Below are positions 10,744-11,829 of a stretch of DNA of 64,000 nt, piece after piece. This stretch comes from Fodinisporobacter ferrooxydans (GTDB taxonomy: Bacteria; Bacillota; Bacilli; Tumebacillales; MYW30-H2). Each line of letters starts with the position of its first letter. Positions within the stretch are counted from its first letter, which is position 1. The position numbers and the translations under genes were made by a program. The stretch is from NCBI RefSeq assembly GCF_022818495.1, contig NZ_CP089291.1:3427501-3491500 (forward strand). Reading direction: 5' to 3'. Below the pieces are notes generated by a model, which did not search any database, was not told the DNA's origin, and worked only from the letters and a program-made list of their open reading frames with translations.

Positions 10744-11169
10744 ATGGAATACTCGACATTCGGAAGACATGTTGCAATTGATACTTGGGGCGTAGATTTT
10801 GAATTGTTAAATGATGCACAATGGCTGCAGCACCAGATGATTGAAGCTGCCGAAGCTTGCGGAGCGACTGTCATGTCTGTACAGGCCAAGCAATTTGAAC
10901 CACAAGGAGCAACTGTACTCGTATTATTATCGGAAAGTCATCTCTCCATTCACACATATCCTGAGCGAGGTTTTGCCGCTTTGGATTGTTATACATGCGG
11001 AGAAACGGTTGATCCTGATGTTGCGATTCAGTATATGGTTCAATCTTTAAAACCGAGGAAAATTTATGCGCACAAACTGATTCGAGGAACTGGTGAATTC
11101 GAAGTTGTCAAACCAAATTTGACTCACGAAGAACAAGTGATTGAACAACCGGAATTAATTGCAAAGTAA
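10744..11169 (+). CDS. speD: S-adenosylmethionine decarboxylase proenzyme
   Basis: Decarboxylates SAM to supply aminopropyl groups for spermidine in the cytosol. The 141-residue proenzyme cleaves itself between Glu64 and Ser65 (SESHLSIHTYPE), turning Ser65 into the pyruvoyl cofactor; His70 and Cys85 keep the spacing of the known processing residues in class 1b enzymes. ATG 10744 follows AGAGGAG; in-frame codons back to 10597 belong to the leader. No spermidine synthase lies next to it. The leader contains inverted repeats (10627-10683). Confidence 0.95.
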   Translation: MEYSTFGRHVAIDTWGVDFELLNDAQWLQHQMIEAAEACGATVMSVQAKQFEPQGATVLVLLSESHLSIHTYPERGFAALDCYTCGETVDPDVAIQYMVQSLKPRKIYAHKLIRGTGEFEVVKPNLTHEEQVIEQPELIAK

Positions 11170-11186
11170 TTTCGATAGAATTCTAT

Positions 11187-11232
11187 AAACCAAGCACTAA
11201 ACCAAGCACCTGACCGGGTACTTGGTTTTTTA
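11187..11232 (+). terminator. speD terminator with duplicated left arm
   Basis: AACCAAGCACC (11200-11210) pairs with GGGTACTTGGTT (one mismatch), followed by a T-tract to 11232. The left arm is present twice as a 12-bp tandem repeat (AAACCAAGCACT/C, 11187-11210), so two alternative stems are possible. Confidence 0.85.
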
Positions 11233-11383
11233 TTTGTTTGGCAATTTTTTTCAATACTGTAAATTTCTGAAGTTTCGGTCAATACGGAATATTCGATTGA
11301 TATGATACATATGCACAGACAGTCGTTTTCGTTTATAAATTTAAAAGTGTAACCGGAACTGTACAGATTTAATCGGATCGGCA

Positions 11384-11434
11384 TTGACATCTTGTATGAA
11401 ACTACATATAGTATTTTTATACCCATATAGGTAT
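11384..11434 (+). promoter_or_regulatory. Promoter with CstR-like operator for the HesB-like selenoprotein
   Basis: -35 TTGACA (11384-11389), 17-bp spacer, -10 TATAGT (11407-11412). Six bases later comes ATACC-CATATA-GGTAT (11419-11434), with the same arms and 6-bp spacer as the site in front of the rhodanese-cstR operon at 3396-3411. The palindrome lies over the expected transcription start, fitting repression. The rest of this 337-bp gap holds the speD terminator and a 72-nt leader. Confidence 0.75.
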
Positions 11435-11506
11435 ATGAACGTTGAAAGAAAAGCATTTCAGTGATGCGATGTTGGATGTCAAAACGAGATTGATGGAGGG
11501 AAAAAC

Positions 11507-11797
11507 ATGATTCAAATAACAGATGAAGCAATGCAGCATCTGAAATCCATTCTCGCGTCTTCCGATCAAACCATGGTTCGACTTTATCTGGCAGGAGTTG
11601 GCTGAGGCGGTCCCAATTATGGAATGACTCTGGAAGAGTCAGCAGATGAGCATGATGAACGTATCGTGCAAGACGGCATACAATTTGTTTATAATTCCGG
11701 TATATCATCATACATGGATGGCATAACAATTGACTACACACGTTCCTGGCTAGGAAAGGGATTCAGCATCTACCGTAAAGGGATGTCTGCATGTTAA
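11507..11797 (+). CDS. HesB/IscA-like selenoprotein (TGA codon 33 read as selenocysteine)
   Basis: A 96-residue A-type Fe-S carrier-like protein. The frame from ATG 11507 (GGAGGG upstream) has one in-frame TGA (11603-11605) at codon 33. The context is GVG-(TGA)-GGPNYGM, which aligns the TGA with the conserved Cys of the HesB domain. The frame then continues intact to TAA, with family-typical GITIDYTRSWLGKGFSI and a C-terminal Cys. HesB-like proteins with Sec here are a known family (TIGR01911). A SECIS-like hairpin lies 19 nt after the TGA. The protein probably binds or passes Fe-S or sulfur species. It has its own CstR-like operator and terminator. The alternative, a nonsense mutation, is less likely given the intact downstream frame and hairpin. 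Confidence 0.85.
11625..11641 (+). promoter_or_regulatory. Bacterial SECIS-like element
   Basis: A perfect 6-bp stem (TGACTC with GAGTCA) closes a 5-nt loop TGGAA. G occurs at loop position two, 26 nt after the TGA. Bacterial SECIS elements are described as a short stem with G in the first two loop positions, 16-37 nt from the UGA; this fits. Confidence 0.75.
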
Positions 11798-11802
11798 TAT
11801 TC

Positions 11803-11829
11803 GACCATCATTCGATGGTCTTTTTTTTA
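11803..11829 (+). terminator. Terminator of the HesB-like gene
   Basis: A perfect 7-bp stem (GACCATC with GATGGTC), 4-nt loop, then eight T. Confidence 0.92.

Follow-up and report, generated by a model that had tools for sequence, protein, structure and literature searches.

A gene of 96 codons with a TGA inside its reading frame almost certainly encodes a selenoprotein of the HesB/IscA type in Fodinisporobacter ferrooxydans, and on its sequence it is to be placed as a new, divergent member of the known HesB-like selenoprotein family. HesB-like selenoproteins have been known since the 2000s. The gene lies within a stretch of 64,000 nucleotides of contig NZ_CP089291.1 (positions 3,427,501 to 3,491,500), which constitutes the window analysed here. 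We infer that the TGA is read as selenocysteine (Sec), a reading made likely by the TGA of the orthologues, the coding-type evolution past it, a SECIS hairpin and the Sec machinery of the genome. In the proposed mechanism, a single-gene transcription unit would encode a 96-residue HesB-like selenoprotein, its UGA codon 33 would be decoded as Sec by SelB and Sec-tRNA(UCA) under the guidance of the SECIS hairpin, and the product would adopt the IscA/SufA fold with Sec33 at the first cluster ligand position and a single Cys96 in place of the CxC pair.

The frame closes with a TAA (11795-11797) and holds one in-frame TGA; read through that codon, its product is MIQITDEAMQHLKSILASSDQTMVRLYLAGVG-U-GGPNYGMTLEESADEHDERIVQDGIQFVYNSGISSYMDGITIDYTRSWLGKGFSIYRKGMSAC, where U corresponds to the TGA at 11603-11605. 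The original prediction had described this single TGA at the conserved Cys site, a promoter, ribosome site and terminator belonging to the gene, a SECIS-like hairpin with G in its loop and an antisense ORF over the same locus, and all of these are present (Table 1), the flanking signals as sequence matches. The antisense ORF has no Pfam family above cut-off in a profile search and is likely a false gene call over the selenoprotein locus, the selenoprotein gene itself being one that standard gene calling would skip or mis-start. The neighbours in the window, speD and an MFS transporter gene, give no functional hint, and a search around the orthologues found no conserved adjoining gene. Scattered genes of a sulphur type (DsrE-like, rhodanese, DUF302, TlpA-like) could be recognised around the orthologues by eye only, a signal too weak to use.

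Table 1. Features of the selenoprotein locus, in window coordinates.
Feature	Positions	Strand	Basis
Promoter-like TTGACA-17 nt-TATAGT	11384-11412	+	11/12 consensus positions; consensus match only
Ribosome-binding site GGAGG, 7 nt upstream of ATG	11495-11499	+	Sequence
HesB/IscA-like selenoprotein gene, 96 aa + TAA	11507-11797	+	TIGR00049, PF01521, IscA fold
TGA codon, predicted Sec33, corresponding to the first ligand Cys in A-type carriers	11603-11605	+	Orthologues all TGA; distant relatives Cys
Bacterial SECIS hairpin TGACTC-TGGAA-GAGTCA, 6-bp stem, loop G at 11632-11633	11625-11641	+	Conserved position, compensatory changes (27 Sec genes), synonymous resampling
Terminal Cys96 codon	11792-11794	+	Alignment; present in 6/7 group members
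Intrinsic terminator GACCATC-ATTC-GATGGTC-TTTTTTTTA	11803-11829	+	Sequence
Antisense ORF, 205 aa, GTG start	11124-11741	-	ORF list

With Cys substituted for U, the protein matches TIGR00049 at 61.4 bits (cut-off 58.8) and Pfam PF01521 (Fe-S_biosyn) at 42.4 bits (cut-off 26.3), and it thus carries the A-type carrier domain. It is also a HesB-like selenoprotein in the broad sense of the literature, having an IscA/HesB-like domain with Sec in a UxGP motif, the type of motif given for these proteins (PMC13188914). With the same substitution, its scores of 47.1 bits for TIGR01911 (cut-off 66.35) and 58.2 bits for NF038090 (cut-off 85) lie below both thresholds, so that it represents a divergent HesB-like group and is a formal member of neither model. 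With this one qualification, the original interpretation is supported, and both conditions named as refuting it came out in its favour: the genome has the Sec machinery, and relatives have Cys or TGA at the site.

AlphaFold2, given 10 sequences, predicts an IscA fold with a mean pLDDT of 87.5. Among solved structures, HI1723, E. coli IscA and SufA match best (TM to the query 0.71-0.84), DsrR ranking lower, and in alignment Sec33 takes the place of their first conserved Cys. The C-terminal tail that bears Cys96 has a pLDDT below 50, and among the seven group members this Cys is missing in L024 only. Where A-type carriers have three ligands, a first Cys and a C-terminal CxC, the window protein has Sec33 and the single Cys96; since the CxC pair is absent, Fe-S carrier activity cannot be assumed. 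From the fold and these residues, the protein may bind or transfer a metal, an Fe-S cluster or a persulfide via Sec33 and Cys96, a role whose chances we would put at about even. The main rival, plausible but less favoured, keeps the Sec reading and makes the product a small selenol redox protein with a Sec33-Cys96 selenenyl-sulfide that handles neither metal nor Fe-S clusters. Such chemistry would suit the single C-terminal Cys that is left, and uncharacterised selenoproteins are mostly thought to have redox functions (PMC13188914); however, the fold and sequence are those of an A-type carrier, and, with a C-terminus of low pLDDT, the proximity of Sec33 and Cys96 is putative. A HesB-like selenoprotein of Methanococcus maripaludis was identified through mutagenesis and 75Se labelling, which favours the Sec reading, and its disruption mutant retained nitrogen fixation; the role of HesB-like selenoproteins is still unclear in general, M. 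maripaludis included (PMC11097638).

The decoding of the TGA as Sec finds its first support in the relatives of the gene. All six orthologues found, which are 43-61% identical and come from three other genera, have TGA, and in no case TAA or TAG, at the corresponding codon; five belong to a set of 14 genomes from this order (G002-G005, of one genus, and G011) and the sixth to Aneurinibacillus tyrosinisolvens (L057, identical with L070 of G181), and a fragment in G112 (L072) has the TGA as well. In the alignment, the site is Cys in some more distant relatives (Desulfosporosinus L059-L063) and TGA in others, as had been predicted. A tree of 55 rows, whose deep forks are unsure because the columns are few, recovers the window group as a single clade (support 81/88) composed of Sec forms alone and implies at least four changes between Sec and Cys over the family. 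Close alternations occur within one genus (L082 with TGA, L086 with TGT) and within one family (L081 and L092 with TGA, L085 with TGT). Codon-position differences were taken in place of NG86 dS, which was saturated: in the seven genes, positions 1/2/3 differ by 0.31/0.21/0.56 downstream of the TGA and by 0.29/0.17/0.49 upstream. Third positions vary most on both sides, which argues for one coding frame through the TGA, and purifying selection acts on the downstream codons.

At first sight, one stop codon interrupting a frame that is otherwise normal suggests a nonsense mutation in what was once a Cys gene, or a sequencing error, with the hairpin arising by chance; however, the same TGA in six orthologues of other genera without any TAA or TAG, the selection downstream of it and the conserved SECIS make this explanation extremely improbable. 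A change of code, with TGA decoded as Trp or simply read through, would also open the frame by turning the TGA into a residue, but TGA terminates 10 of the 36 window ORFs counted, orthologues of the gene themselves stop with TGA past the last Cys and lose similarity beyond it, and the Sec33 site is aligned with Cys rather than Trp, which leaves this reading hardly credible. Nor is there more than a negligible probability of two products, a 32-residue peptide and a downstream protein restarting at ATG 11624: an ATG-start ORF of 57 residues does exist (11624-11797), but the restart ATG is lost in at least one orthologue (TGG in L024), the regions on either side of the TGA form one IscA domain, and this reading offers no account of why TGA and SECIS are conserved.

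The reading of the TGA as Sec is further supported by the hairpin, which begins 19 nt downstream of the UGA, within the coding sequence, and has G in its apical loop. Across 32 different Sec genes, the spacing between the TGA and a downstream hairpin is nearly constant. The motif CTGG occupies positions 28-31 from the T of the TGA in 31 of these 32 genes, against 25% expected from synonymous resampling, and in 10 of 28 Cys genes. The full 6-bp stem of the window gene forms in 0.9% of synonymous recodings, and the mean number of stem pairs over the 32 Sec genes is 5.1, against 3.2 +/- 0.19 expected. In the covariation set of 27 Sec genes, which like the resampling set contains related sequences, 92.6% of cells pair; three stem pairs have changed on both sides (8 cells), a level reached by none of 500 shuffles, and pairing falls to 25-51% when the partner is slid by 1-3 columns. 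Sec-SufA genes, which have their hairpin in another register and reach a score of 1 of 6 on the fixed-register count, were excluded from the covariation test. The SECIS is weaker in Cys homologues than in Sec genes. The Cys-type HesB genes L060, L059 and L086 retain all or most of the hairpin (L060 perfectly), and these are probably remnants of a change from Sec to Cys, in keeping with the remnant SECIS-like hairpin described for the HesB of Desulfitobacterium hafniense (PMC1794560). Rfam SECIS_1 has no match at the window, a miss that carries no information because the model is also silent in all 14 control genomes.

Moreover, the complete genome (one contig, 4.86 Mb) contains the Sec machinery for which a search had been proposed. 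A profile search recovers selB as an ORF of 638 residues (387.5 bits over both stretches, cut-off 242), and a tRNA-Sec (selC) with anticodon TCA is present; selA (598.7 bits, cut-off 268) is directly followed by a selD (412.9 bits), and there is a second selD (364.9 bits, cut-off 125). Both selD genes (L094 at C1:2685729 and L095 at C1:147069) have an in-frame TGA of their own, with the Sec motifs KAGUGCK and GAGUACK and a hairpin downstream of each TGA.

In total, the genome has four Sec HesB-like genes (that of the window, C1:362868, C1:4080654 and C1:135797) and one Cys SufA-type carrier (C1:4552526), and a SECIS model built from the Sec gene set has these four as its top matches there. The fourth (L099, C1:135797-135847, minus strand; VNLEGGUGAGIQFDMVLDEP) was found through this model only; it scores 45.9 bits for Pfam Fe-S_biosyn and is without a C-terminal Cys, and it may have relatives in other genomes of the order, where there are partial SECIS matches. 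The paralogue at C1:4080654-4080905 (minus strand; L018/L049) has GISUGKPKLGV in place of UGGP and a CC end. A SufA-type A-type carrier with Sec at its first ligand Cys (KSGGUSGFSYGM and a CGCG tail; SECIS-like hairpin GGCAC-TGGATC-GTGCC) occurs in three of the four species of one related genus (L034 in G002, L036 in G003, L037 in G004; also L131-L133), the fourth species having Cys. It is rare: a strict pattern, run on 399 genomes of the class, had no match in any other genus and gave only one chance match in 398 genomes of the phylum, and no earlier report turned up in the literature examined. L103, a match to this Sec-SufA pattern, was rejected as chance, since it lies in a different frame of an ORF for an unrelated membrane protein. 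On a bolder reading, possible but less likely than not, the window gene would fall into a separate subfamily that consists of Sec forms only and is marked by a Sec and terminal-Cys pair; together with its three Sec IscA-like paralogues, and alongside the single Cys SufA-type carrier, it would represent a branch of metal or Fe-S handling in these Bacilli that depends on selenium. With its four Sec paralogues and its one Cys carrier, the genome should be useful for asking what Sec contributes to this fold.

Finally, HesB-like selenoproteins are an established family listed in reviews (PMC1794560, PMC9312934, PMC13188914), and a literature search on IscA-type selenoproteins and on selenoproteins of Effusibacillus or Kyrpidia found nothing relevant. 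The window protein resembles TIGR01911 (HesB_rel_seleno), a family with the UxGP motif known from Firmicutes, in its Sec at the family Cys position, UGGP motif, length of about 95 residues and SECIS closely downstream, and differs in forming a divergent clade below the cut-off. NF038090 (IscA_HesB_Se) aligns over its full length (1-89) and is the best among the specific models, although its threshold is likewise not reached. The Cys-type HesB-like proteins of Desulfosporosinus share a motif of the GVGCGGPNFGM type and 39-43% identity with the window protein, but have a Cys codon for the TGA, a Cys-rich tail and a hairpin partly kept (intact in L060). With the A-type carriers IscA, SufA and ErpA, the protein shares the fold (TM 0.79-0.84 to E. 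coli IscA and SufA) and the position of the first ligand, whereas it has Sec for that Cys and one terminal Cys for the C-terminal CxC.
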